NCBI GenBank assembly: GCA_026129095.1
Contig: JAHCIT010000008.1
Span: 133,021-197,020 of the forward strand
Direction of reading: 5' to 3'
Source: Deltaproteobacteria bacterium
Lineage (GTDB): Bacteria; JAGRBM01; JAHCIT01
DNA length: 64,000 nt
Made by a program: the position numbers and the translations under genes. Every line of letters begins with the position of its first letter. The stretch's first letter is position 1. Shown here piece after piece: positions 36,796-63,475 of the stretch. The notes below the pieces were generated by a model. It ran no database searches, had not been told where the DNA came from, and saw nothing but the letters and a program-made list of their open reading frames with translations.

Positions 36796-36851
36796 TTACT
36801 CCACCTTGAACAGCCAGACCGGTCCCCATTTCTGCTCAAGCTGTAAGCGCG
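36796..36851 (-). pseudogene. 3' end of a host gene cut by the prophage
   Basis: Reading leftward from the prophage edge, an open frame encodes RLQLEQKWGPVWLFKVE and stops with TAA at 36798-36796. The stop lies 10 bases from the stop of the convergent lipoprotein gene, the same tight spacing seen at 20416/20423. The codons and the aromatic-rich ending look like a genuine protein C-terminus. The rest of the gene should lie beyond the far end of the prophage, outside this window. Its identity cannot be told from 17 residues. Confidence 0.6.
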
Positions 36852-36966
36852 TGTCATAAACCGGCGCGAAAAGTTGTCATAAACGCCTTTCCGGCGGGTT
36901 TCACTTTTTGAGTCGATTCGTTTCACTTTTTGAGGGTCAGGGACGGCGCGGGTTTCAGTTTTTGCT
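36852..36966. repeat. prophage terminus: tandem transposase-site-like repeats
   Basis: TGTCATAAAC occurs at 36852 and 36875. GTTTCACTTTTTGAG occurs at 36898 and 36920, and the near copy GTTTCAGTTTTTGCT at 36952. The starts are spaced 23, 23, 22 and 32 bases. Tandem sites of about 22 bp are typical of transposon ends bound by MuA or TnsB-type transposases, and the outer end begins TG as expected. The five host bases next to it are GCGCG, the predicted target duplication. Confidence 0.65.
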
Positions 36967-37036
36967 GGGGCCGGCTCCGCCAGGATCGCTGGCTCGGCCG
37001 GGGCACTTCACAACACAACGGTGTTCTTTTGATGGA

Positions 37037-37480
37037 TCAGGCCGGCGCGGCGGCGGTCTTGCGGGCCTTCGCCCGCGCGAGCCGGGCGGCCTGCCTCGAT
37101 CGCACCGCCTCGCGCTTCTGCTCCAGTTCGGCCTTCACCGCCTTCCGGTAGGCCGGGTCGCGGAGCATCCGGATGATTCGGTCGTAGGGTCCGGGCCGGA
37201 CTGAAACCGGCGATGAGGGGGTAAGGTCTCCCGGGAATGGGGGCCGCGACAGTGGCGCCTGCTGTGACGAACTCTCCTGCGGCCGACAGCCGCCCAGGAT
37301 GCCCGCCCGGCGGACTCGTTCCCCGGCCGTCAGCGGCTCGCCAGGCTTGGCCTGCCGGCGCGCCCGTGGCCTGGCCGTGGGCGGACCCGGGGAGGCCTTC
37401 CGCCTGGCGGCCAGCCGTTCGCGGAGGCCGGGCCGCGAAGCGCGGCCTTTTGGTCCGTTCTTTCGAGTTAAGATTCCCAT
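37037..37480 (-). CDS. small strongly basic phage protein at the prophage tip
   Basis: This 147-aa protein is full of Arg, Lys and Ala (RASRPGLRERLAARRKASP and ARLARAKARKTAAAPA), with a short folded patch (YDRIIRMLRDPAYRKAVKAELEQKREAV). ATG 37480 follows GGAGGAAA by 5 bases. It is the last gene of the late strand, beyond the tail fibres. In Mu this tip position holds com/mom, but no Mom or Com motif (such as a zinc finger) is visible here. Its role is unknown; nucleic acid binding is likely from charge alone. Confidence 0.6.
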   Translation of the reverse strand: MGILTRKNGPKGRASRPGLRERLAARRKASPGPPTARPRARRQAKPGEPLTAGERVRRAGILGGCRPQESSSQQAPLSRPPFPGDLTPSSPVSVRPGPYDRIIRMLRDPAYRKAVKAELEQKREAVRSRQAARLARAKARKTAAAPA

Positions 37481-37502
37481 GCGCTTTTCCTCCGTCACTC
37501 GC

Positions 37503-41430: not shown

Positions 41431-42144
41431 TCATTCCCACAGGTCCGATGGCAGCCCCCAGACGCCGCCGTATTCCGCCGCCCCGCCGTGGAGCAGCTGG
41501 CCGCCGTTGTAGTCCGCGCCGTCGTAGCGGTAGGGGTGCCCGGTCTCGGAAGCGAACACGGTCGCGTAGTAGGTGTGATCGCCGTCCGGATCGTAAAGAT
41601 AGAACAGGAACCGGTAGGGCCTTGACCTTGCCGGTTTCACGAGGCGGACCTGGTTCAGGAGGCGCCGCCAGGCGTGAACGTCCGGGATCTGGTCTTCCGA
41701 ATTCAGATAGATCACCACGTCGAACAGTGCCCAGGCGAGCCAGCCGAAATCGATCATTCCGTCGTGGACCCACGTTCCGTCGTAATAGGTCTCCGACCGG
41801 TCCTCGAGGATCTCCACGCGGGGGAACCCGAGCAGCACGAGCGCGGCCACCATGCCGGGGTCGGTGCCCGCCGACCGCCAGGTGGCGTGCGCCGCGATGA
41901 CCCGGGCCCGGTAATGGTCCTCCGTTTCGCCGGTCGCGGGATCGATCGCCCGGGCGCGGCCGTGGCGCCGGAGTGCCTCGCCTTCCGAGAACCGGGGGAA
42001 CCGGAGCGTCCGGGCCAGCTCCAGCTCGTCCTGCCGCTTCTGGAGCGTTTCGGTGAGCGTCTCCCACAGGCCGTGGATTTTCTTCCCGGCGTCCCACAGC
42101 CACGGCACGTTCAGCCAGTCGCGGAAATACTCGATGACGGTCAC
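41431..42144 (-). CDS. baseplate/tail protein, Mu gp48 or tail protein I-like
   Basis: This 237-aa protein starts with GTG 42144, overlapping the stop of the J-like gene as GTGA. It has the position and size of the last wedge protein of contractile tails (Mu gp48, P2 gpI). FDVVIYLNSEDQIPDVHAWRRLLNQVRLVKPARSRPYRFLFY and AATWRSAG-like helices fit the tail-tip part. The C-terminus (YNGGQLLHGGAAEYGG) is Gly-rich. Assignment rests mainly on gene order. Confidence 0.7.
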   Translation of the reverse strand: MTVIEYFRDWLNVPWLWDAGKKIHGLWETLTETLQKRQDELELARTLRFPRFSEGEALRRHGRARAIDPATGETEDHYRARVIAAHATWRSAGTDPGMVAALVLLGFPRVEILEDRSETYYDGTWVHDGMIDFGWLAWALFDVVIYLNSEDQIPDVHAWRRLLNQVRLVKPARSRPYRFLFYLYDPDGDHTYYATVFASETGHPYRYDGADYNGGQLLHGGAAEYGGVWGLPSDLWE

Positions 42145-43283
42145 GGCTGCGAAGCCTCCGTGACCGTGAGGGTCCACTCTCCGCGTACGGCCAGTTCGCC
42201 GGGCGCAAGCGTGACGTTCGCGGACGGCGCGGCGAACACCACATCTTTCAGCGGGAACCGCCGGAGCAGCTCCATCGCCAGACGGGCGCGGACGAAATCC
42301 TCCCCGACCTCCTGCGGCCGGAGCAGGGGTTCCAGCGAGCCGTTCAGCTCGAAGAAGGCGTCCAGGACCGTTTCCGCCTCGGCGGCGAGACCGGCATAGG
42401 CGCGGCCCGGCAACGCCACCAGCTGGGCCTCGCCGTCCACCGGCACGGCGGCCGGGCCCAGAACCAGCAGATCGTCGTTCACCGGCCGGATCGCCTGGAG
42501 CGCCTCCGTGACGGCTTCGATCAGCCCCTCGGTCGGAATGCCGGCCGAACTCACCACGTACACGTCGACCGTTCCGTGCCCCCTCGGGTGCTGCGCGTCA
42601 ACGAAGGCGGAGACGACTCCGGGCACGGCCAGCGCCGCCTGCCGGTAGGCTTCGGCGGTGGTGCCCGACGCCAGCGACTGCCAGACGCCGAGAATCCGGG
42701 TGCGGTAGGGCTCGTGGTCCTCTTCGTCGGCGCCCTCGGCGGTGAGCCAGTTCTCGCCGTTCGTGACGCTATCGACGCCCGGAACCGGGGTGACAATCTC
42801 CGTGATCCGTCCGGTTCCGGCGTTGTATCCGGAGCCTGTCCCGAGGGCGCGGACCGGCGCGTCCGCCGACGTCTCGCCGTCAGGGATCACGGCCTCGGCT
42901 GCCGTCTCATAAAGGTATCTTCGTCCCTGCGAATCGGTCTTTGTGCCGACCTGGGTGCCTGACGGAATCGCCGTGTTGCCGTCGGTCCCCTCGCGGACGA
43001 ACGTGACGACGCCTTCGGCTACCAGCGCGCCTTTGCGCGGGCGGTTCACGTCCTGCCCGTGCAGGTCCAGCCAGCCGCCCTGCGCCGTGGCGGCGAACAC
43101 CATCTGGATCACCGCCCAGCAGAACCGGTGCAGCCAGAACGCCCCCTCGATCAGCGTTTCCAGCCACCAGCGCGTCAGGCCCGGCGAGTTCAGGTTCGTG
43201 TCTTCGGGCAGCTTCTGCCGGGCGATCGTCATCACCTCGTCGCGGATTTCGTCGCGGGTCATCAGCTTCGGAATGTCAGCCAT
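42141..43283 (-). CDS. baseplate J-like wedge protein (Mu gp47-like)
   Basis: This 380-aa protein is a member of the baseplate J family, which forms the wedge arms in contractile tails. Typical pieces are GGWLDLHGQDVNRPR, GTQVGTKTDSQGRRYLYE, RALGTGSGYNAGTGRI and ADEEDHEPYRTRILGVWQSLASGTTAEAYRQAALAVPGV. The last stretch is a family hallmark. ATG 43283 is preferred over 43301 because GAGGGG precedes it. Its end overlaps the next gene. Confidence 0.88.
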   Translation of the reverse strand: MADIPKLMTRDEIRDEVMTIARQKLPEDTNLNSPGLTRWWLETLIEGAFWLHRFCWAVIQMVFAATAQGGWLDLHGQDVNRPRKGALVAEGVVTFVREGTDGNTAIPSGTQVGTKTDSQGRRYLYETAAEAVIPDGETSADAPVRALGTGSGYNAGTGRITEIVTPVPGVDSVTNGENWLTAEGADEEDHEPYRTRILGVWQSLASGTTAEAYRQAALAVPGVVSAFVDAQHPRGHGTVDVYVVSSAGIPTEGLIEAVTEALQAIRPVNDDLLVLGPAAVPVDGEAQLVALPGRAYAGLAAEAETVLDAFFELNGSLEPLLRPQEVGEDFVRARLAMELLRRFPLKDVVFAAPSANVTLAPGELAVRGEWTLTVTEASQP

Positions 43284-43746
43284 CGGCAATCCCCTCGTCA
43301 CGTCCGAAGCCCGCCTCGCGGCGGGTCCGATCTATGGTGACCTGGAACCGGTCCGGGTCGGCCACGATGAGGAGGCTCGACCGACGGAGTTCGTCCTCGT
43401 CGTACCAGCCGAACGAGACGCGGCACCGGAACGAGGGGCCGTCCTTCACGACCTCGGCCCCTGTGTAGGCCGGATCGATGCGCGGGTCCGCGTTCACCTG
43501 GTCCTCGAGGTCCAGCCGGAGTTCCTCCTCCATGCCGGGCTGGTATTCGGCGCCGTAGTACCGGCTCCACTGGATCCCGGCGGAGCGGTCGAAGAAGATG
43601 GAGCCCAGCTCTGCCCGGAGGCGGATCGCGAGGTCCTGCACGAGCACCTCGGACCCGGAGCCCTCGACGAACGTTCCGCCCGCGTCGGTTTCCAGGTCGG
43701 TCATCGGATCGTCCAGAAGCAGGTCTTTCCCGCCGGCGGTGCCCAT
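43276..43746 (-). CDS. gp25/W-like baseplate wedge protein (Mu gp46-like)
   Basis: This 156-aa protein shows SEVLVQDLAIRLRAELGSIFFDRSAGIQWSRYYG, then EEELRLDLEDQVNADPRIDPA, similar to Mu gp46 and to gp25-type wedge proteins. It lies between the spike protein and the J-like protein, the standard place. It overlaps the next gene by 8 bases. Confidence 0.8.
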   Translation of the reverse strand: MGTAGGKDLLLDDPMTDLETDAGGTFVEGSGSEVLVQDLAIRLRAELGSIFFDRSAGIQWSRYYGAEYQPGMEEELRLDLEDQVNADPRIDPAYTGAEVVKDGPSFRCRVSFGWYDEDELRRSSLLIVADPDRFQVTIDRTRREAGFGRDEGIADG

Positions 43747-45307: not shown

Positions 45308-45912
45308 CAGTTGGTCCCCCCCGAGAGCGGCGGAATCTGCGCCGGGTCGCGCGTGTCCGGCCTGGGCGGCATGCCGGCGGCATCGGGCGGCTGGCCGGAC
45401 GTGGAAATCTTCGAGCCCATGAACTCCAGCGCCGGCGGCAGGGCGGCGCGGCGGCCCTCCATGATCGCGGCGGCGCGGGCGAGCTGGGCCTTCATCGGGC
45501 GGAACTGCTCGAACTCCAGCACGGCGCGGATCGAGTCCTCGGCAGCGCCGTCCTCGGACCGGAGCTTCGAGAACAGCACCTCGCCGAGGCGGCGGGCCTT
45601 GGCGTGCGGGGCATAAAGGCGGAACACCTTCGGGGTGCCGTCGCCGGTCTTTCCGGAAAAGAGCCGGTCGAGACCGGCCAGCTGCTCCTCCGGCGTCTCG
45701 CCGCCAGAGTCCGATTCGTCGAGCAGGAGGAGTTCGAGCGTCGCCCGCGCATCGCCGATGGAGACCGGTTTCCGGATCGAGCCCTCGATGCCGGGGACCT
45801 GGAACTCGTCGATGACGATGTCCCGGTCCACCGAGAAGTACTGGTACCGGCCCGGCACCGGGACCCCGTCCAGGGTCACGCCGCCGTTCGCCACCGCCAC
45901 GCGCCCGCTCAT
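45307..45912 (-). CDS. phage tail/baseplate protein at the Mu gpN position
   Basis: This 201-aa protein starts with ATG 45912, overlapping the tape measure stop as ATGA. It has a beta-rich first half (GGVTLDGVPVPGRYQYFSVDRDIVIDEFQVPGIEGSIRKPV) and a helical second half. By position it replaces the Mu gpN-type protein that links the tape measure with the hub. I recognise no clear domain, so the assignment is mostly by gene order. Confidence 0.6.
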   Translation of the reverse strand: MSGRVAVANGGVTLDGVPVPGRYQYFSVDRDIVIDEFQVPGIEGSIRKPVSIGDARATLELLLLDESDSGGETPEEQLAGLDRLFSGKTGDGTPKVFRLYAPHAKARRLGEVLFSKLRSEDGAAEDSIRAVLEFEQFRPMKAQLARAAAIMEGRRAALPPALEFMGSKISTSGQPPDAAGMPPRPDTRDPAQIPPLSGGTN

Positions 45913-47825
45913 GCCAGCCCCCTGGACACGCGGTCCAGCACCGAGAGGAACTCCATCGCCTGGGACTTCGTGGAACCTCCCGACAGGTTGAAGACGGGGC
46001 TGTTCAGGACGATGCCGCCGCGCGAGGGCTGCCCGGATCCTTCCCCGCGCCCGGCGGCTCCCCTGCGGGCACCGGCGGCGTCAGGCATGGCGACCTTGAG
46101 TGTCTTCTCGACCTTCATCGAGAGCGCCCCCTCGCCGTCCTCGATGCCGCCGCCGAACGTTTCGGCGAAGCGCATCCCCGACAGGGTGAGGTCCGAGAGG
46201 GGCCCCACCTTCGCGTCCGAGAACGGCAGGTATTCGCGCAGCGCCCCGAACACTTTGCCGGCTGCGTCCTTGAGCCGTCCGGCCGCTCCGAGAAACCCAT
46301 CGATGAACGTGTCGAGTATCTTCGGACCCGCCTCGGCCATCCAGTCGAACAGGAGGCGGAACTCGCCCCGGATCTGCGCCCAGTTTTTCCAGATCACATG
46401 GCCCGCCCAGGCGAGCGCCCCGGCGGCGGCGATGAAGGGAATCAGCGGAGCCATCGCCGCCCAGGCCGCCGCCGCCAGGCCCCAGAGCGGGGCGAGAACG
46501 GACACCAGGCCCGTCTTCGCCACCAGGAGGGCGGCATTCAGGGCGGCCCAGCCGGAAGCCACGGCCGGAATCATGACGCCGAGCGTGCCAAGCGTGAACA
46601 GGATTGATCCCGCGACGAGGAGCAGCCCGCCGAAGGCCAGGGTCGAGAAGACGATGATCTTCGTCAGCGTGGCGTGATCCCGGGCGAAGCCCAGAATCCG
46701 GTTGACGCCGGACGTGAAGATGTCGAGTGCCCTCGTTACCGCCGGGACGAGCTGCTCGCCGATCTCGATGCCGAGCGTCGACACGCTTCCTTTCAGGAAG
46801 GTGAGCGAGCCGGAGAGCGTGTTCCGGTTGTTCTTCGCGAACTGCTCGCCGACGCCATTCGCCTCGATCATGGTCTCGCGCATGCGCCGGACCTCGCCGA
46901 TGCCGGTGTTCATCACCGAGTTGAAGACGCGGAGCCCCTCGCTCCCGCCCATGATCTTCGCCTTGAACACGTCGGCCTGGGCAGCGGGGAACCGCGAGAG
47001 CGCGCCGCTGATGTTCTCGAACACCTGGGTCATGGGGAGCATCTTCCCGGAGGCGTCGCGGGTCTGGATGCCGAGCATGGCGATGAGCTTGCGGGCCTCG
47101 TCGGAGGGGCTCATGAGGGCGTTCAGGGCCGACCTCACGGCCGTTCCGGATTCCATCGCGGAAACCCCCGCGTTCCGGAGCGAGGCCATGACGGCGATGG
47201 TCTCTTCCAGGGACTGGTTCGCCGAATAGGCCGCCGCACCGGCCGCGCCGATGGCGGGGCCCAGTTCGCCGATCTTGAAGGCGCTGATGTTTCCGGACGC
47301 CGCCATCACGTCCACGACATGCGCGGTCTTCGACACGTCGAGCCGGAAGCTGTTGAGAACACCGGAGACGGCAGCGGCGGCCTCGCCGAGCCGGAGGTTG
47401 CCCGCCTCGGCGAGCAGCAGCGTGGGCCGGATCGACCCGAGGATCTGCTGGGTGTTCTGCCCGGCGGACGCCAGCTCCTGCATCGCCTGGACGGCCTCGG
47501 TCGGATCAAACCGGGTGTCCACGCCGAGCTGCTTGGCCTCGCGCTGGAGCTTGACGAATTCCTCGGCCGTCGCGCCGCTGATCGACTTGAGGGTCGCCAG
47601 CTCGCCCTCGAACTTCATGGCGGCGTTCGTCGGCAGCGCGAACGCGCCGACGATGGCGGCGCCCGCGAGCGCCATCCCCTTGCCTACGTTCTGCACGCGG
47701 CGGGAAACCTCGACGAGCCCTTTCGTCTGGTCTTCCATCGCCCTGATCTGCCGGTGCGCCTCGAGCATCGGGCCCGAAAACCTGTTGATGACCTCGAGGA
47801 CGACGCCGAGATGGTATTGTCTCAC
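45909..47825 (-). CDS. tail tape measure protein
   Basis: This 638-aa protein sets the tail length. The N-terminal half carries the TP901-type core: MKFEGELATLKSISGATAEEFVKLQREA, FDPTEAVQAMQELASAGQN and ALMSPSDEARKLIAMLGIQ. The middle is hydrophobic (IIVFSTLAFGGLLLVAGSILFTLGTLGV and AAWAAMAPLIPFIAAAGALAWAG), a segment that may enter the host membrane. It starts 3 bases after the chaperone extension. From its short length a tail of about 95 nm would be expected, if the usual 0.15 nm per residue holds. Confidence 0.88.
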   Translation of the reverse strand: MRQYHLGVVLEVINRFSGPMLEAHRQIRAMEDQTKGLVEVSRRVQNVGKGMALAGAAIVGAFALPTNAAMKFEGELATLKSISGATAEEFVKLQREAKQLGVDTRFDPTEAVQAMQELASAGQNTQQILGSIRPTLLLAEAGNLRLGEAAAAVSGVLNSFRLDVSKTAHVVDVMAASGNISAFKIGELGPAIGAAGAAAYSANQSLEETIAVMASLRNAGVSAMESGTAVRSALNALMSPSDEARKLIAMLGIQTRDASGKMLPMTQVFENISGALSRFPAAQADVFKAKIMGGSEGLRVFNSVMNTGIGEVRRMRETMIEANGVGEQFAKNNRNTLSGSLTFLKGSVSTLGIEIGEQLVPAVTRALDIFTSGVNRILGFARDHATLTKIIVFSTLAFGGLLLVAGSILFTLGTLGVMIPAVASGWAALNAALLVAKTGLVSVLAPLWGLAAAAWAAMAPLIPFIAAAGALAWAGHVIWKNWAQIRGEFRLLFDWMAEAGPKILDTFIDGFLGAAGRLKDAAGKVFGALREYLPFSDAKVGPLSDLTLSGMRFAETFGGGIEDGEGALSMKVEKTLKVAMPDAAGARRGAAGRGEGSGQPSRGGIVLNSPVFNLSGGSTKSQAMEFLSVLDRVSRGLA

Positions 47826-48873: not shown

Positions 48874-50313
48874 TCATCGCGTGACCAGTTGGCTCGTTAC
48901 GCCGATCTGGATCTCGATGTCCTCGATGTGGTCCACCGGCTGCGCCTTCACGACGACGATGGCCTTGCCGTCGGCGGCGAGATTCGTCGTGGGGGCGATC
49001 TCGACACTGACCGCGACGAGCTCGGACGGCGTCCGGTTCACCATCCCGTTCACGATGGCGTTCTTCACGTTGGCCACGAGCAGCCCGAGTCCGGCGCCGT
49101 CACCCTCGAGCGGAGACGAATCGTCCCCGAAACTGAACGTCGCGGCGAACAGCGCCAGCCGGACCAGCTTGTCGAGCGCCCGCACCGTGGGCAGCGACTG
49201 GTAGGGGCTGCCGTCCTCGGCGAGCGTCCGCGCATGGCTCCAGTACCACGACCGGTGGCCATTGTGGCGGCGGACGGTGTTGATCCGGGCGTCGTGCAGG
49301 AACAGCGCATGCGTGTTCGTGAACGCCTTGTCGACGCGCACGATGGCGGCGGCCTTGCCGTCGAGCACCCGGCTCATCTGCCGGTTGACGGTGACGGCCT
49401 GGATGCGCGATCCGAAGACGCCGAGCGGGCTGGCGTGCTCGGTGCGGCCCTGTCGGCTCACTTCGACCGGTCCGGCGACGACGGCCACGCGGTCGGTGGC
49501 GAAGCTGTTCGCCTCGTTCCGGGACGCGCTCACCCAGGAGTCCATGTCCTCTTCTTCGTCCTCGTAGTCCCGGCCCGCCAGTTCGCAGACGAAAAAGCAG
49601 GGCTTTCCGGAGACAGCCCGGTCGAAGGACCACTGTTCGTAGGCCGCCCAGTCGGCCGCCGACGACGGACCGGCCACGGCGACGAATTCGAAGTCGAGAT
49701 CGGGGTTGGCCTCGATGGCGGCGTCGAGCGCCTCCACGATGTCGGCGGCGCTGGCCGCCGGGCCCTTGACCGTGGCGGTCCAGGTGTCCCCCGCGAGGAA
49801 GCTCGGGTCTACTGACTCGTGGTTCGTGAAGGTGATCGTCACGCCGGTGTCCGCGATCTCAATGGCGCCGTCCGACGGGATGAGCGCCGACGGCAGGAAC
49901 GTGTCGCCGCCGTCGAAGGAGATTTTCACCATCGCGGTGCCGCGCTGGCCCGCCTTCGTGATGACGGCCACGAGCTCGAAATCTTCCGCGGGGTCTCCGG
50001 AGAGCGCGGCCGTTCCGCCGCTGGTTCCGGTTATCGACAGCGCGCCCAGCACTCCGGGAATGCTCGGATCGGCCTTGACGCCGATGGCCGGTTTGCGGGC
50101 GTTCAGTTCCACGTAGTGGTCGATGGCGAGGTCGGCGAGCGATCCGCGTCCCAGCACCGACCGGAGATTCACGTCACGGCCGAGGAAAAAAACCCGGCCC
50201 GCGTCGCCGTCCTTCGAGGTGACTCCGGCGAGCAGCGCGCGGCCGGAGACATCCTCCGGAAGCCGGTTCAGTTCACCTGCGGTCCTCGTCGCGTTGATTC
50301 CGCCGAAGGGCAT
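48874..50313 (-). CDS. contractile tail sheath protein (DUF2586-like)
   Basis: This 479-aa protein builds the contracting sheath. The N-terminus has GRALLAGVTSKDGDAGRVFFLGR. The middle has ASAADIVEALDAAIEANPDLDFEFVAVAG and RVAVVAGPVEVSRQGRTEHASPLGVFGSRI. The C-terminal part (NRTPSELVAVSVEIAPTTN, HIEDIEIQIGVTSQ) forms the interlocking arm. Sheath function follows from order and size. A domain insertion around residues 85-190 looks Ig-like (TGTSGGTAALSG, KISFDGGDTFLPSALIP). Confidence 0.82.
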   Translation of the reverse strand: MPFGGINATRTAGELNRLPEDVSGRALLAGVTSKDGDAGRVFFLGRDVNLRSVLGRGSLADLAIDHYVELNARKPAIGVKADPSIPGVLGALSITGTSGGTAALSGDPAEDFELVAVITKAGQRGTAMVKISFDGGDTFLPSALIPSDGAIEIADTGVTITFTNHESVDPSFLAGDTWTATVKGPAASAADIVEALDAAIEANPDLDFEFVAVAGPSSAADWAAYEQWSFDRAVSGKPCFFVCELAGRDYEDEEEDMDSWVSASRNEANSFATDRVAVVAGPVEVSRQGRTEHASPLGVFGSRIQAVTVNRQMSRVLDGKAAAIVRVDKAFTNTHALFLHDARINTVRRHNGHRSWYWSHARTLAEDGSPYQSLPTVRALDKLVRLALFAATFSFGDDSSPLEGDGAGLGLLVANVKNAIVNGMVNRTPSELVAVSVEIAPTTNLAADGKAIVVVKAQPVDHIEDIEIQIGVTSQLVTR

Positions 50314-52329: not shown

Positions 52330-53286
52330 CTACAGCGCGTCGGTCCAGAGGAAGCCGGCTTTCGCCAGCGCCACGTAGTGCGCGTAGAAATCATTGACCT
52401 GGACGACCCGGCCCTTGCCGTTGGCCGTGTCGTAAGTGCGGACCCGCTGGAACTGCGGATCGTTCAGCCGGAGGGTCCAGCCGAACGTCGGCGCTTCCTT
52501 TTCGTTGACCGGGTTCCGGTAGTAGAGCAGCACGAAGTCGCTCCAGACATCCGTGATCGTGCCGCCGTCCCTGGTCATCGTCGCGGCGGAGCCGAGAACG
52601 ATCTGGAGGCCGGGGATGCCGAAATAGGTCACGAGGTCGTCCGCCGTCGGGAGGCTGCCCTTCTGGTAGGCGAACGCGGCGCGGACCTTCGGGTGCGTCC
52701 GGAGCCGGTTGAATACCGGCACCGGGAGCATCAGCCGGTTCGGCTGCTGGCCGCCCGTGCCGCGCCGGATCGCCTCGGCGGCGGCGAGGATCGCCACCTG
52801 CGGATCGGAACTGTCGTGCGACCATTTGGCGGTGCTGGTCAGCGTGTCCTTATTGTCGGCGGGGTAGATGCCCGCGTTCGTGACCATGCCAGCGCACAGC
52901 ACTTCCTTGCGAAGCTCGATGCGGTGCTGCAGGACTTTCGTCTTGCGCGACTCGATGTCCACCTCGCCGCCGGGGCGGGTCTTCGCCGCCCGGATTTCCC
53001 GTACGTCGATCAGCTCCTCGAGCGAATGTTCCCGGAGCGTCACGTCGCCGAAACTCGAGTCGCTGGTGACGATCCGCTTCGGGTCGTTCCGGGGCGAACG
53101 CTCGTCGTTCACGACCACGAAGGCGTCATGGCCGAACGACTCGATCTGCACGGTCTCGACCGGAACGATCAGTTCCGGAAGGATTTCGCCGTAGATCAGG
53201 CTCTGCGCCCGGTAGCCGAGGGAGACCTCGTTCAGGACCGGGTGAAGCCCGGCGGCGAGGTTGTCCAGGTTCTTTTCAGCAGGCAT
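52330..53286 (-). CDS. major capsid protein
   Basis: This 318-aa protein has the order, length and pattern of an HK97-fold major capsid protein of the Mu gpT / P22 type. Examples are LDNLAAGLHPVLNEVSLGYRAQSLIYGEILPELIVPVET, RLMLPVPVFNRLRTHPKVRAAFAYQ and WSDFVLLYYRNPVNEKEAPTFGWTLRL. AAGGAAAGG lies upstream of ATG 53286. It follows the decoration protein gene. Confidence 0.85.
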   Translation of the reverse strand: MPAEKNLDNLAAGLHPVLNEVSLGYRAQSLIYGEILPELIVPVETVQIESFGHDAFVVVNDERSPRNDPKRIVTSDSSFGDVTLREHSLEELIDVREIRAAKTRPGGEVDIESRKTKVLQHRIELRKEVLCAGMVTNAGIYPADNKDTLTSTAKWSHDSSDPQVAILAAAEAIRRGTGGQQPNRLMLPVPVFNRLRTHPKVRAAFAYQKGSLPTADDLVTYFGIPGLQIVLGSAATMTRDGGTITDVWSDFVLLYYRNPVNEKEAPTFGWTLRLNDPQFQRVRTYDTANGKGRVVQVNDFYAHYVALAKAGFLWTDAL

Positions 53287-55157: not shown

Positions 55158-57446
55158 TTATTCGGTGGCTCCGGGGTTGTGGTCCCAGCCGGGATCGGGG
55201 GTGAATCCGGCGGGGAACGGCGAGGGTCCGGTGAGGCCGCGACGGCGGGCGTCGGCTTTCGTCACACCGCGCGTGGCGCACCGGCAGCGGTGGCCGTTGG
55301 GCGGCCAGATCGTACGCCACACGGGATCGGCCTTCGGCGCGACGAACCCGGCCAGCGCCGCGTGCGCCGGCCGCGTGCGGTCGTCGCCGACCGTCAGGTA
55401 TTCGTACCCCCAGTAGAAGTCGCCGAGGTCCGGGTCGTTCATCTGCTGCCAGCGGGCGCCGTTGTAGGCCTCGGCGGCGGTGTTCCTGAAAACGGTCTCG
55501 AGGTAGTGGTTCGACGCCGGCGTGTAACCGTGGTCCTGGTAGATCTGCCTCACTGAGTCCGTGAACTCCTTCAGGGTCTTCCCCTGCTCGAACGCCTCGG
55601 CGCGCGCCTTCTGGACGTCCGAGACGAACTGCTCCGTCACGTCGCCCGCGATGGAGAACGCCTTCCGGCGGGCGGCGTCCGCCACCGCCTTCAGCGCCTC
55701 CTGCGTCATCGGCAGCTTCGATGCGAACAGCTTCAGCGCCTCGGTGGGCACGAGGTTCAGGATGTTGATGGCGATGAAGTCGAGCGCCTCCACCGGTGCG
55801 AGGCGGAACCGGCCGTCCGGCGTCCAGCCGGACCGGCGGGCTTCGTCCACCACGGAGACGCGGCCCTCAAGGCGTCCGGCAAGAACAAGCCGCTCCATGA
55901 TGTCCACGAGCGGAAGCGGCGGAGCCATCCGCCAGGAGGCGAGCGACGGTAGCGCCCCGGCCGACTGCACCGCCGCGTCGAAGGCATCCCTCAGTTCGCG
56001 CATCGGGTCGCCGAACGTGCGGAGCGCCCGTTCCGAGAGTTCGTCGATCCGGTCGTGCCGCTCGCGGGAAAACTCGATCAGGTCGAGCCGCTCCGTCAGC
56101 GTCAGCTTTCGTGCGAACTCACGGGCGGGTCCATCTGATGGGGTCGCGGGCGGATTGTCCGGCGGGCCGCCGCCTTCTTCCGGCAGGGGCGATCCCGGCG
56201 CGGCTGGCGGGGCCGCCGCTTGAAGCACCGGTTCGCCGTCCTTCGGCGCCGGGATGCCGTAGGTCTCCCGGACGTAGCTTTCCGGAATCTCCACGCCCAT
56301 TTGCTGAAGCAGGCGGTCCCGCTCGGCGAGGCTCTTCTGGTCCGCCTTCGCGTCGTAGTTGATGACGAAGCGCGGGAAACGGTCCACGTTGAAATTGAAC
56401 CCGCAGATCCACGGGATGAGCTGGCCGTTGAAGACCTCCATCAGTTCCTCGCAGTCGCAGGCGGTCAGCTCCTCCTTGGTCCGAAGGTGAACCGCACCGA
56501 GCGCCTGGGTGCCGTTCCGGCCTTCGCCTGACGACAGCGTCTGTCCGATGATCGCCTGCGTGATCCCGTCGTCCAGCAGCTGGATCAGCGGGATGAATGA
56601 CAGGTTTCCAGCCTTCGCCAGCTCGCTCTCCAGAAGCGTCACCTTCACGTCGCCGGGGATCGTGACGCCGGACATCTCCTCGATCTCCGCGATCACCGCT
56701 TCGAGGTCGTCGATCTGCTCGTCCGTATAGGTATCCGGGTAGGTGGCGATGCTGGTCGGGGAGCCGAACTTCTTCGACATCCGCACCCACGAATCGATCA
56801 CCTGCCTCTTGAACCATGAGTACCAGTACACAAACTTCGCCTCGCCCTGGCCGTAGGGGTTGTCGTCTTCGGGCTCGTGTGTGAAGACGAGGAACTTCCG
56901 TTCCGGCAGCTCGACGCCGTTCTGAGGCTGCTCGCGGGTGAGCATCCGGAGATGGTTCTCGTGATCGAACACGAACCGGCGCGCGGGGCGGCCGAGAATC
57001 TTTGCGGGCACGATCAGCGTCCGGCCGAGGATGTCCCGTGTCTCCCAGACGATCTCGGCCACGGCGACGCCGGTGCCGATCCCGGCCAGCAGGTGGTTGT
57101 TGATCCGTTCCATGGGGAGCAGCAGGAGCATGGCCTCGACGGCCTCGCGGGCCTCCAGGTCGGCGGGTGTGTCTCCCGCGGGGACGATCTCCCAGGGCCG
57201 CCGGCGGGCAGAGACCCGGCGCTCACGGATGGCGGCGCGGACCTTCGGATCCTTGACCATCAGCTCCCGGTAGTGCTGGAGCGTCCGGCCTTCGTCCCGG
57301 AGCACCTCGTCGGGATTCCGCTTCACCGCGAGCCAGGCGTCGGTGCTGGCGGGATCGGAGCGGTCCGACCCGAGTGCGCCCGGCTCGGGCTTCAGCTTCT
57401 CGCCGCCGGCGGCGAATATCCTCAGAAAAGATTCTCTCAGTCCCAT
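55158..57446 (-). CDS. portal protein (DUF935, Mu gp29-like) fused to Mu F-like head protein
   Basis: This 762-aa protein joins two phage head proteins. Residues about 1-400 are the portal: SLRES-like start, DEVLRDEGRTLQHYRELMVKDPKVRAAIRERRVSARRRPWEIVPAGD, and KRQVIDSWVRMSKKFGSPTSIATYP. Residues about 470-762 are the F domain (SPP1 gp7): EFTDSVRQIYQDHGYTPASNHYLETVFRNTAAEAYNGARWQQM and WPPNGHRCRCATRGVTKADARRRGL. GGAGGAACC precedes ATG 57446. In Mu the two proteins are separate (gp29 and gp30). Confidence 0.88.
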   Translation of the reverse strand: MGLRESFLRIFAAGGEKLKPEPGALGSDRSDPASTDAWLAVKRNPDEVLRDEGRTLQHYRELMVKDPKVRAAIRERRVSARRRPWEIVPAGDTPADLEAREAVEAMLLLLPMERINNHLLAGIGTGVAVAEIVWETRDILGRTLIVPAKILGRPARRFVFDHENHLRMLTREQPQNGVELPERKFLVFTHEPEDDNPYGQGEAKFVYWYSWFKRQVIDSWVRMSKKFGSPTSIATYPDTYTDEQIDDLEAVIAEIEEMSGVTIPGDVKVTLLESELAKAGNLSFIPLIQLLDDGITQAIIGQTLSSGEGRNGTQALGAVHLRTKEELTACDCEELMEVFNGQLIPWICGFNFNVDRFPRFVINYDAKADQKSLAERDRLLQQMGVEIPESYVRETYGIPAPKDGEPVLQAAAPPAAPGSPLPEEGGGPPDNPPATPSDGPAREFARKLTLTERLDLIEFSRERHDRIDELSERALRTFGDPMRELRDAFDAAVQSAGALPSLASWRMAPPLPLVDIMERLVLAGRLEGRVSVVDEARRSGWTPDGRFRLAPVEALDFIAINILNLVPTEALKLFASKLPMTQEALKAVADAARRKAFSIAGDVTEQFVSDVQKARAEAFEQGKTLKEFTDSVRQIYQDHGYTPASNHYLETVFRNTAAEAYNGARWQQMNDPDLGDFYWGYEYLTVGDDRTRPAHAALAGFVAPKADPVWRTIWPPNGHRCRCATRGVTKADARRRGLTGPSPFPAGFTPDPGWDHNPGATE

Positions 57447-57468
57447 GGTTCCTCCGTGCCGACGGTGT

Positions 57469-58953
57469 TCACCGCCGCCGCGCAAACGCCTTGATCCGGC
57501 CGGCCGCCGTCCGGTGGCCGTCCATCGCCCCCGCCATGGCGTCCGGACCGTCGTCCTTCACCGAGGTGCGCGGATAGGCGAACAGCTGGTCGAGCAGGAT
57601 GCGGGTATCGCCCACGTTCCGGTTCGTGAGCAGCTCGCCCCGTTCCATCACCGGGGCGGCGCGTCCGATCCGGGTCTCCTTCGCCTCGCGGGCGGTCCAC
57701 ATCGTGAAGGGGAGCGAGTAGCCACGGCGCTGCGCCTCGTACCGGAACGGCTCCTTATAGAGAGAGGCGAAACCGTTCGACTCGAACCGCCAGACGCCGA
57801 TCTTCCGGCCGAACCGCTCGTAGATGTCGTAGTGCGCCCGGACGTATTCCTCCGGGGAATCTTTCCGGATGCGGACCTCGGCGATGTGATGGCGGCCGTC
57901 CTTCAGCGCGTCCACGACGATCACCTTGAAGTCGTTTGATCGCCCCTGACCGGCAGCCGGGTCCGAGTGGGCGGCGAGGCGGAAACCGTCCCAGCGGCCG
58001 ATCAGCGCGTCGGGATAGGAGGTCTCCCACGACGGCCGGAACATCATGCCGTCCTCGTTCGGCTCCCCGTCGTACTCCTGCGCGTAGAGACGCGAACCGA
58101 GCCGGGCCAGTTCGGCGTCCAGGAACGCGGTGCTCTTGATGAGCGGTGCGATCGATTCGCCCCGTTCGTCCCGCGAACGCCAGATCCGGCATTCCCAGGC
58201 GTGCGAGAATTCCGAGTCGCCTTTTACCAGCCGCGAGAGCGCGGCGGTCTTGGACACCAGCGTGCCCACCCAGGTGAGCGTCCAGCCCTTCGGCGACAGG
58301 GCCGGAATGACCTTCGCCATCATGTCGGTGAGCAGCGCGTTCACCCGGTCCGGGTTCCGCGCCAGTTCCTCGTCTTCAAGGTCGTCGAACACGCCGAAGT
58401 CGGGACGCTGGCCTCTGGTGACGAGGCCGCGAATCGGCTGGCTGAGTCCCAGCGCCATCAGCCGGGCGCCGCTGCGGATCGTGAAGTCGGTCTGCGTCCA
58501 GGCGCCTTCGGTCCACTGGGGGCCGTAGTCGCACAGGAGGCGCTCGTTCGCCTCGAACTCGTCGCGCACGGCCGTCACGAAGTTCGAGGCGAGGTCTTCG
58601 GTGATCGACTGGACGAAGCCGAACCGGTAGCCGGCGCACAGCATTTTCCAGATCGGCATGCCGAACGACGTGACCGTGGATTTTCCGAAGCCGCGGGGGC
58701 CGACGGTCGCGGACGGTTTATCCCGGAGCAGCGACACGCCGATCAGCGCTCGGTGAAACTCCGACAGCTCCGTCTCGAACCAGTGAGGCAGATAGGTGCG
58801 GAGGAACCAGCCCGGGTCTTTGGCCGCCCGTTCGCGGCGGAGGCGGCATGCCTCCGGCGACACATCCTCGAACGGCAGAACCGACTGGAGCCGCTTCGCG
58901 CGGATCTCCTCCATCGCCCGGAGGTAGTCACTGATCTTCAGCTGGTGGCTCAC
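57469..58953 (-). CDS. terminase large subunit (Mu gp28-like)
   Basis: This 494-aa protein packages DNA into the head. The ATPase has SATVGPRGFGKSTVTSF (Walker A) and DFGVFDDLEDEE (Walker B). The C-terminal part (VIVVDALKDGRHHIAEVRIRKDSPEEYVRAHYDIYERFGRKIGVWRFESNGFASLYKEPFR) has the RNase-H-like nuclease fold with conserved acidic residues. Its ATG overlaps the small subunit stop as ATGA. Confidence 0.93.
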   Translation of the reverse strand: MSHQLKISDYLRAMEEIRAKRLQSVLPFEDVSPEACRLRRERAAKDPGWFLRTYLPHWFETELSEFHRALIGVSLLRDKPSATVGPRGFGKSTVTSFGMPIWKMLCAGYRFGFVQSITEDLASNFVTAVRDEFEANERLLCDYGPQWTEGAWTQTDFTIRSGARLMALGLSQPIRGLVTRGQRPDFGVFDDLEDEELARNPDRVNALLTDMMAKVIPALSPKGWTLTWVGTLVSKTAALSRLVKGDSEFSHAWECRIWRSRDERGESIAPLIKSTAFLDAELARLGSRLYAQEYDGEPNEDGMMFRPSWETSYPDALIGRWDGFRLAAHSDPAAGQGRSNDFKVIVVDALKDGRHHIAEVRIRKDSPEEYVRAHYDIYERFGRKIGVWRFESNGFASLYKEPFRYEAQRRGYSLPFTMWTAREAKETRIGRAAPVMERGELLTNRNVGDTRILLDQLFAYPRTSVKDDGPDAMAGAMDGHRTAAGRIKAFARRR

Positions 58954-60544: not shown

Positions 60545-61099
60545 TTAACGGCGATTTTTGCGCCGAGCTTCCCGCTCAGCCTTTCGTCTATCTCTGCGAT
60601 CTGGTTTGTGGCCACCTGTGTTAACCGACCGCTTAGATGGGGGTTCTGGGATTACCGGGATAATGTCGCAATATGCGCCACTGCCATCATAGATCAAACG
60701 GACAAATCGGAAAAAATCTCTCCCTAAAAGGCCATTAAATGGGCGTGGATTTGGCGGTGTGGCCATCCCAATCATCTCGGATGTAAAAGTAATTCCTCTT
60801 TTTTTGGTACCGTCCCCGACCACCAATGTGATACTCAGCAAATAGACTGGGCAGTTTTCCGGGACATGGGAGACCCCCGTCATTTCTTCAAATCGGATAG
60901 GCACAATCCCCAAAGACTCTGCAATCCCTCTGTCGATAACCGTTTTTTGTGCCCCAGTATCGACCATAAGGCGCACTTTAACGCCTCCGGCCTGGGCCGA
61001 AGCCTCCCCTGCTTGAAGGGGTCGAGTAAGAGTAACTTCTACGAGAGGCCCCTGAAGGACCAGTGAATCAGCATTGGCGCTCTGGCAACGATGCTTCAC
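60545..61099 (-). CDS. retropepsin-like aspartyl protease
   Basis: This 184-aa protein has VKVRLMVDTGAQKTVIDRGIA, the DTGA active-site motif of clan AA aspartyl proteases, and NGLLGRDFFRFVRLIYDG, the second hallmark (GLLGRDFF). The C-terminus is basic (DRRDRRKAEREARRKNRR). The enzyme should work as a dimer. GC content is lower than around it: two 60-base lines counted (60721-60840) give 57 of 120. Its ATG overlaps the stop of the gene before it. It is probably a cargo gene in the prophage. Confidence 0.82.
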   Translation of the reverse strand: MKHRCQSANADSLVLQGPLVEVTLTRPLQAGEASAQAGGVKVRLMVDTGAQKTVIDRGIAESLGIVPIRFEEMTGVSHVPENCPVYLLSITLVVGDGTKKRGITFTSEMIGMATPPNPRPFNGLLGRDFFRFVRLIYDGSGAYCDIIPVIPEPPSKRSVNTGGHKPDRRDRRKAEREARRKNRR

Positions 61100-61586: not shown

Positions 61587-62195
61587 CTATTCGCCGGATT
61601 TCTGTGCCCGCCGGAACTCCCACGGCGGTTCAGGGCCGTCCTCGTGCCATATCCCGAGGCGGTCCGCTTTCGCAGCGGCCTCCGCCTCCTCGAGCGCCCG
61701 GTCGTCTCCCGCGTACTGCCGGTACCACCAGGCCCACCCGGAGCGCACCATCTCAATCTCCACGTCACGGCCGTCGTCGGTGGTGACGCGCCCGACGGTT
61801 CGCTGGTAGCGGTCGCGCTGCCGGGGCTCGACGATCACGGTGCCCGACGACACCAGCGACTCCAGGAATCTCCACGCCTCCTCGCCGCCGGGCTGGCCGT
61901 CCCGGCCCCGCTTCGGCGTCTCCGGAGCATCCACTCCGCCGAGCCGAACCGTCACGAGGATGGCGCCGGGCGGCAGGCACGCCGGCTCCACATCGAGCGT
62001 GTCTCCGTCCTTGACCTTGACTACTCGCGCCGCAAAGGACTTCGAGCCCGCCGATACTGGCGCGTCGCAACGGCAATCCAGTGGCGCGGTCTCACTGACC
62101 GGCGCGATGCACCCCGCGAGGAGCAGGAGCGCCGCGAAGAGCGCGGTGAGCTCACTTCGCGTGCGCGAGTCTGACGATGGCGGACGACAGCTCAT
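61587..62195 (-). CDS. lipoprotein with staphylococcal-nuclease-like domain
   Basis: This 202-aa protein has a lipoprotein signal (LLLLAGC) and an SNase-like domain: ARVVKVKDGDTLDVEP, VRLGGVDAPETPKRG (Asp and Arg/Asp active-site features), RYQRTVGRVTTDDGRDVEIEMVRSGWAWWYRQYAGDDRALEEAEAAAKADRLGIW. It would cut DNA or RNA outside the cytoplasm. It overlaps the end of the membrane-protein gene by 44 bases and has AAGGGG ahead of ATG 62195. It probably belongs to the phage accessory genes. Confidence 0.85.
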   Translation of the reverse strand: MSCRPPSSDSRTRSELTALFAALLLLAGCIAPVSETAPLDCRCDAPVSAGSKSFAARVVKVKDGDTLDVEPACLPPGAILVTVRLGGVDAPETPKRGRDGQPGGEEAWRFLESLVSSGTVIVEPRQRDRYQRTVGRVTTDDGRDVEIEMVRSGWAWWYRQYAGDDRALEEAEAAAKADRLGIWHEDGPEPPWEFRRAQKSGE

Positions 62196-62646: not shown

Positions 62647-62682
62647 GTTTCACGCGCCCCGGCGCGGGCGCAGTGCGTCAAA
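62647..62682 (-). repeat. 36-bp bipartite repeat, copy B
   Basis: GTTTCAC, ten bases, GCGGGCGCAGTGCGTCAAA. It is identical to copy A at 26 fixed positions with the same spacing. It includes the last bases of the repressor gene and lies just ahead of the membrane-protein gene. It may be a shared control site or a trace of cassette insertion. Confidence 0.55.
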
Positions 62683-63475
62683 TCTTCCGGCCGAGCCAGA
62701 CGACCCGGCCTTTCAGTTCAAACCCCCGCCCGTCGTTCTCGTCCACCTCGAACGATTCGTACCGGGGATTGTCGCTGATAATCCGGATCTTCCCGGACGG
62801 CGTCCGCTGCAGCCGCTTTACGGACAGCGCGTCGCCTTGGCGGATGACGTAGACGCCGCCGGAACCGACCGTCTTCTGCCGGAGATCCACGAGCAGGATG
62901 TCGCCGCCCAGGATCGCCGGCTCCATCGAATCCCCTTCGGCAGAGATCAGACGGAAATCCTCTTCCGGATTCGAAGTCCGGAGTTCGCGCCGGAGCCACT
63001 CGGTGCGGAACGCCATTTTCACGATCTCGCGCTCCTCGCCCACATCGTTTCCCGGGCCGGCGCTCGCCCGGACATTGAGCAGCGGGATGCGGGCGAAGTC
63101 GCGGGCGAACTGGACTTCATAGGCGGATGCCATTTCGGCCAGCCCGGCCTTCTTCATGGGCCGGACAGCGGAATCCTGCAGGGCGGCAGTATCGTCCGAC
63201 AGCTCTTCTCGGAATGCCGCCTTCACCAGTTCGGCGGGCTTGCGAAGCATCGGCCCCTCGCCGGTCTCCAGCCATTTCAGGTTCACCCCGCGAATCGCGA
63301 GCGCGGTTGAAACGAGTGTCTTTGGGGCTTCGCTGACGTCGTTTTCCCAAGCCGAGACGGTCTTTTGCGACACCCCTAGGACCTGGCTCAGGTCGGCCTG
63401 AGTCAAGTCGAGTGCATCCCTTAGTGATTTCAACTGTTTACCAAACATTGGTAAAATATCTTGACTTAATACCAT
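62678..63475 (-). CDS. phage CI-type repressor with S24 peptidase domain
   Basis: This 265-aa repressor keeps the prophage silent. The HTH is at residues about 11-65 (KSLRDALDLTQADLSQVLGVSQKTVSAWEND). The S24/LexA-like domain has ISAEGDSMEPAILGGDILLVDLRQ (nucleophile Ser in GDSM) and GDALSVKRLQRTP (catalytic Lys). This Ser-Lys pair suggests self-cleavage upon RecA activation. ATG 63475 gives the full protein; ATG 63448 is an alternative. It is divergent from the Ner-like gene, with an AT-rich operator region between. Confidence 0.9.
   Translation of the reverse strand: MVLSQDILPMFGKQLKSLRDALDLTQADLSQVLGVSQKTVSAWENDVSEAPKTLVSTALAIRGVNLKWLETGEGPMLRKPAELVKAAFREELSDDTAALQDSAVRPMKKAGLAEMASAYEVQFARDFARIPLLNVRASAGPGNDVGEEREIVKMAFRTEWLRRELRTSNPEEDFRLISAEGDSMEPAILGGDILLVDLRQKTVGSGGVYVIRQGDALSVKRLQRTPSGKIRIISDNPRYESFEVDENDGRGFELKGRVVWLGRKI

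Follow-up and report, generated by a model that had tools for sequence, protein, structure and literature searches.

The short repeats at 36852–36966 of the window (the whole stretch of 64,000 bp analysed here, C8:133021-197020 of the 208,373 bp contig C8) pose three questions: to which element they belong, where exactly this element ends, and which proteins they may serve. The copies named in an earlier, sequence-only reading are all present and exactly placed: TGTCATAAAC at 36852–36861 and 36875–36884, GTTTCACTTTTTGAG at 36898–36912 and 36920–36934, and GTTTCAGTTTTTGCT at 36952–36966, with start-to-start spacings of 23, 23, 22 and 32 bp as it had given. Matches to GTTTCASTTTTTG with at most two mismatches number five in the window, where 0.79 are expected, and none of 100 shuffles reached five. 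In the 3.67-Mb host genome, the pair TGTCATAA-15-TGTCATAA (at most two mismatches) is found solely at two places, 38 kb apart and mutually inverted, which are the two ends of a prophage. The inner word GTTTCASTTTTTGAG (at most one mismatch) has three copies in this genome, every one at the prophage ends. A multi-copy host element was rejected for TGTCATAAAC, as its nine other genomic copies are all single, with neither a partner nor inner repeats. The repeats are real, but they do not constitute one tandem repeat as had been proposed: the array is made up of two distinct classes of site.

Genes of the prophage

The repeats form the late-gene end of a Mu-like transposable prophage with the organisation of phage B3 and a transposase branch of its own; the element is not Mu itself. 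Positions 36842–37036 are non-coding. They are followed by the last open frame before the end (37037–37498, minus strand), which encodes 153 residues without a family match. The late genes lie on the minus strand and run towards 36842. Genes on this strand encode a Baseplate J-like protein (42141–43301), a tail tape-measure protein (PhageMin_Tail, 45909–47825), a DUF2586 protein from the tail region (48874–50313), a member of the Major capsid protein E family (52330–53286), a 775-residue protein with Mu portal and Mu F domains (55158–57485), the terminase large subunit (57469–58953) and a repressor-type protein with HTH_3 and peptidase S24 domains (62678–63475). In the 775-residue frame, the Mu portal domain covers residues 71–411 and the Mu F domain residues 623–738; three related viral contigs have one frame for each of these domains. 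The repressor gene is adjoined by genes for a retropepsin-like aspartyl protease (60545–61099) and a staphylococcal-nuclease-like protein (61587–62195). The interval that separates the repressor from the divergent early genes contains the repeated words ATACCATAAT and AGGTATTA (L003:14487-14525, that is C8:196487-196525), and these are probably repressor operators.

Genes for transposase, AAA ATPase, Gam, GemA, a DUF5131 protein and a D12-class methylase are found beyond the window on the plus strand. The DDE transposase has 557 residues (C8:200267-201940), with D154, D255 and E297 invariant in the alignment, and is encoded together with the AAA ATPase. The element thus carries Mu-type head and packaging genes in addition to Gam and GemA. 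Its gene order is that of phage B3 read backwards, with the transposition module at the far end, opposite to the late genes, as in Pseudomonas phage B3 and Stenotrophomonas phage phiSHP3.

Exact tips and flanking DNA

The far end of the prophage was located beyond the window, 63 bp short of the contig end, where TGTCATAA-15 bp-TGTCATAAAC occurs in inverted orientation. Read inward, this end is TGTAAACTAT-TGTCATAATAACTACCCGAAAGT-TGTCATAAAC, and the end in the window is TGTAAGCGCG-TGTCATAAACCGGCGCGAAAAGT-TGTCATAAAC, with the tip sequence TGTAAGCGCG directly followed by TGTCATAA. Both ends have TGTAA in common, 10 bp outside the outer TGTCATAA, and for this reason we place the tips there, at 36842 and C8:208310. 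The prophage then measures 38,449 bp from tip to tip (C8:169862-208310) with TG...CA tips and inverted end sites, in agreement with Mu-like transposable phages, which are about 36–40 kb long. It occupies 36842–64000 in the window; on the same numbering, the far tip would fall at 75290. The tip sequence is TGTAAGCGCG at 36842–36851 (plus strand) and TGTAAACTAT at the far end.

The tips were also examined with a matrix that excludes the phage studied here and was built from nine ends, which belong to phages B3 and phiSHP3 and to three groups of cellular transposons. Among 90,526 positions the two proposed tips rank first and second, with 21.8 and 21.1 bits against 11.9 for the next position. The rule of a TG tip, a site at offset 10 and a second site at offset 32–33 recurs in many relatives, and the phage conforms to it at both sites. 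In three prophages of relatives, both ends were located by this rule and proved to be bordered by exact 6-bp duplications (CCATCA, CCTGGG and GGTGCT), which supports the rule itself. The shift in G+C at the prophage border is mild and not decisive.

At the level of sequence, these data bear out the proposal of a transposable-phage end with transposase-type sites, including the inverted copy that had been predicted for the other end. The position assigned to the end was 10 bp too far inside. According to that proposal the phage starts at 36852, where the outermost TGTCATAAAC begins with TG, and GCGCG at 36847–36851 is the duplicated host target. However, GCGCG does not follow the far end, the common TGTAA lies 10 bp further out, and in the relatives examined the first site is at offset 10 from the tip. 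With the tip at 36842, GCGCG is part of the phage DNA and cannot be the duplication; we regard a start at 36852 as practically discounted.

Of the host sequence, no more than AAGC (36838–36841, plus strand) recurs as a direct repeat next to both tips. The flanks are TCAAGC and AAGCGC, so that at most 4 bp are duplicated, where 5 or 6 bp would be expected of a Mu-like transposable phage, with neither an NNTANN sequence nor a 6-bp duplication. A 4-bp target duplication, unlike that of the relatives, is possible, but we lean somewhat against it. AAGC abuts both tips exactly, which has a chance of about 1 in 200, and, as a weak additional point, a host frame of about 20 codons stays open across the joined flanks up to ALEQKWGPVWLFKVE and a stop. 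Against this, both neighbouring groups make 6-bp duplications, as described for B3 and for Leptospira prophages (PMC8705779). In the related transposons these are of the type NNTANN, for example GCTATT, AATAGG, TGTAAC, ATTATG and CCTAGC, although some copies have unmatched flanks. Further, the right flank comprises only 63 bp and has 13 consecutive G where the contig ends; it may be an artefact or part of another insertion. A search for its continuation in other contigs found none. The empty site was sought in one relative of the order, the contig of which ends within the neighbouring gene. At L004:8332-8351, a GT repeat followed by a G run lies within 63 bp of the contig end and is possibly a sequencing or assembly artefact.

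Outer and inner sites

The outer class consists of two 23-bp units on the plus strand, TGTCATAAACCGGCGCGAAAAGT at 36852–36874 and a second unit starting with TGTCATAAAC at 36875–36897, which we propose as transposase sites 1 and 2. The inner class comprises three units on the minus strand. Inner sites 1 (36898–36912) and 2 (36920–36934) have the same sequence, GTTTCACTTTTTGAG on the plus and CTCAAAAAGTGAAAC on the minus strand; inner site 3 (36952–36966) reads GTTTCAGTTTTTGCT on the plus strand. Units of this GTTTCASTTTTTGAG type are found only at the two ends and differ in sequence from the outer pair. Their offsets from the tip are 56, 78 and 110 at the left end and 87, 109 and 133 at the right end.

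A matrix for the inner sites was built from the inner repeats of Caulobacteraceae and Sphingomonas transposons. Nowhere in the prophage does it score higher than at the two GTTTCACTTTTTGAG units, each read as its reverse complement CTCAAAAAGTGAAAC. Ranks 14 and 16 go to two units of the right end, where one further unit scores poorly; the third unit of the left end is a weaker match at rank 71. This ranking is not fully blind, because the training words were framed after the phage sequence had been seen. The orientation of the inner units is reversed at the left end relative to the right end and to the inner repeats of the transposons. Between the two prophage ends the inner units are direct and not inverted. 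At least three near-copies inside the end were found at both ends of this phage, at nine of 16 transposon ends and at one of 31 ends of B3-type phages; this single B3-type array is GC-rich and of mixed orientation.

Taken as a whole, the late-gene end of a transposable prophage, with the outer pair as transposase sites and the inner units as a second class of site, is in our view very probably the correct explanation. It builds on the observed ends, their symmetry, the gene content and the layout common with relatives. Binding of the transposase to the outer or the inner class, and a function of the inner sites, are most likely by analogy with the Mu, B3 and Tn7 families. The 557-residue transposase would bind two TGTCATAA units per end, bring the two inverted ends together and cut after the CA of TG...CA, while the AAA ATPase would capture the target and the genome would be inserted by replicative transposition. 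The GTTTCASTTTTTGAG-type units, of which there are at least three inside each end, most likely accommodate additional subunits of the transposase, or else its second DNA-binding domain, and help to distinguish the ends or steer the assembly. Several points count against this explanation: the 6-bp duplication of the relatives is not seen, with 4 bp only, the left-end inner units are reversed relative to the right end and to the transposons, the matrix for these units was framed after the sites had been seen, and a search for close relatives of the phage to compare it with found none.

Alternatively, only the outer TGTCATAA pair might be a transposase site, and the GTTTCASTTTTTGAG units might be operators, host-factor sites or bending sites, acting in late transcription, packaging or maintenance. 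In favour of this, the units differ from the outer pair, are direct between the ends, and belong to a type of array which is almost absent from B3-type phage ends (one of 31). Also, some related prophages have a palindrome with the same letters upstream of gemA, and there it resembles an operator. But the units keep the phase of the outer pair (23, 23, 22), are confined to the ends and match inner repeats in transposons whose transposase is related, and none of the better matches is close to the repressor. We therefore consider this alternative rather unlikely. The more specific assignment of the GTTTCA units as repressor operators was rejected, since there is no good match near the repressor.

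The palindrome, AAAAAGTGAAAC..GTTTCACTTTTT, is located just upstream of gemA in related prophages with Neisseria-like DNA (L033:15544-15574, L069:16047-16077, L071:16433-16463 and L074:15759-15789). It is probably an operator, and its likeness to the inner sites of the phage studied here may be due to chance.

Relation to phages and transposons with similar ends

In a tree of 79 transposases, with row labels assigned by us from collection and context, the 45 phage rows and the 33 transposon rows each group into a clade of their own, with support of 100 and 98, respectively. The transposase of the phage falls outside both, and thus not inside the B3-type phage clade, on a branch of length 2.12; the placement is approximate, as this is a quick tree and the branch is long. 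Searches for closer relatives by the transposase alone and by the terminase returned none. The portal gave three contigs, but the stretch examined of each lacks a related transposase. Paired exact copies of GTTTCASTTTTTGA were searched in viral contigs, and none were found. One viral-contig match to the outer pair (L030) has an unrelated context and was rejected as a chance match.

Phages of the B3/phiSHP3 type resemble the studied phage in their length near 38 kb, TG tips, DDE transposase with ATPase, and in the offsets of site 1 (10) and site 2 (32–33). Their transposases, however, are only 25–27% identical to that of the studied phage, their ends are without convincing inner arrays, and they have 6 bp beside the tips instead of 4 bp. 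The contractile-tail type genes (baseplate J) of the studied phage are a further difference.

The small cellular transposons (B3/Tn552-type), with copies in Nostocales, Caulobacteraceae, Sphingomonas and Rickettsiales, carry an IS481-labelled transposase and an ExeA-type ATPase. They share the TG tips and a pair of outer sites, in their case at offsets 10 and 32, and their inner repeats start at about offset 56 and proceed in steps near 21–33 bp; those of the Caulobacteraceae and Sphingomonas transposons are at 56, 89 and 110 compared with 56, 78 and 110 at the left end of the phage. Their transposases are about 28% identical to that of the phage, with somewhat better scores than those of the phages. 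Unlike the studied phage, they lack phage genes, have an outer spacing of 22 instead of 23 bp, insert at NNTANN with 6-bp duplications and have inner repeats that face the same way at both ends. At least six copies of a 3.7-kb transposon with long inverted repeats, almost identical to one another, are present in one Nostocales genome (L144, L145, L146, L151, L152 and L179); their transposase is of the same family, and two of the copies have unmatched flanks.

Escherichia phage Mu is similar in its portal, F, Gam and GemA proteins and TG tips, but its ends are without a TGTCATAA pair at offsets 10 and 33, and its transposase is absent among the relatives found. Tn7-type transposons (TnsB) have arrays of about 22-bp sites at each end, as does the phage. 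The match of TnsB to the phage transposase is weak and not significant (E 0.04), and neither targeting genes nor an attachment site of Tn7 type were seen in the phage.

The mixed end layout together with the deep transposase branch indicates a variant rather than a routine member of the family. Tentatively, and with a little less confidence than an even chance would allow, we suggest that the phage stands for a deep lineage of its own in the transposase family, the third beside transposable phages and small cellular transposons and placed between these two. The ends of the phage would combine a 23-bp outer pair of phage type with inner arrays of transposon type, one of them reversed, so that site orientation would distinguish the ends.

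Exact ends have thus been obtained for a transposable prophage from a poorly sampled bacterial lineage. The end rule holds for phages as well as for small transposons with transposases of this family, and with it the borders of an element can be located by sequence only. The mixed layout of the ends is relevant to the inheritance or exchange of the transposition machinery among transposable phages and small transposons.
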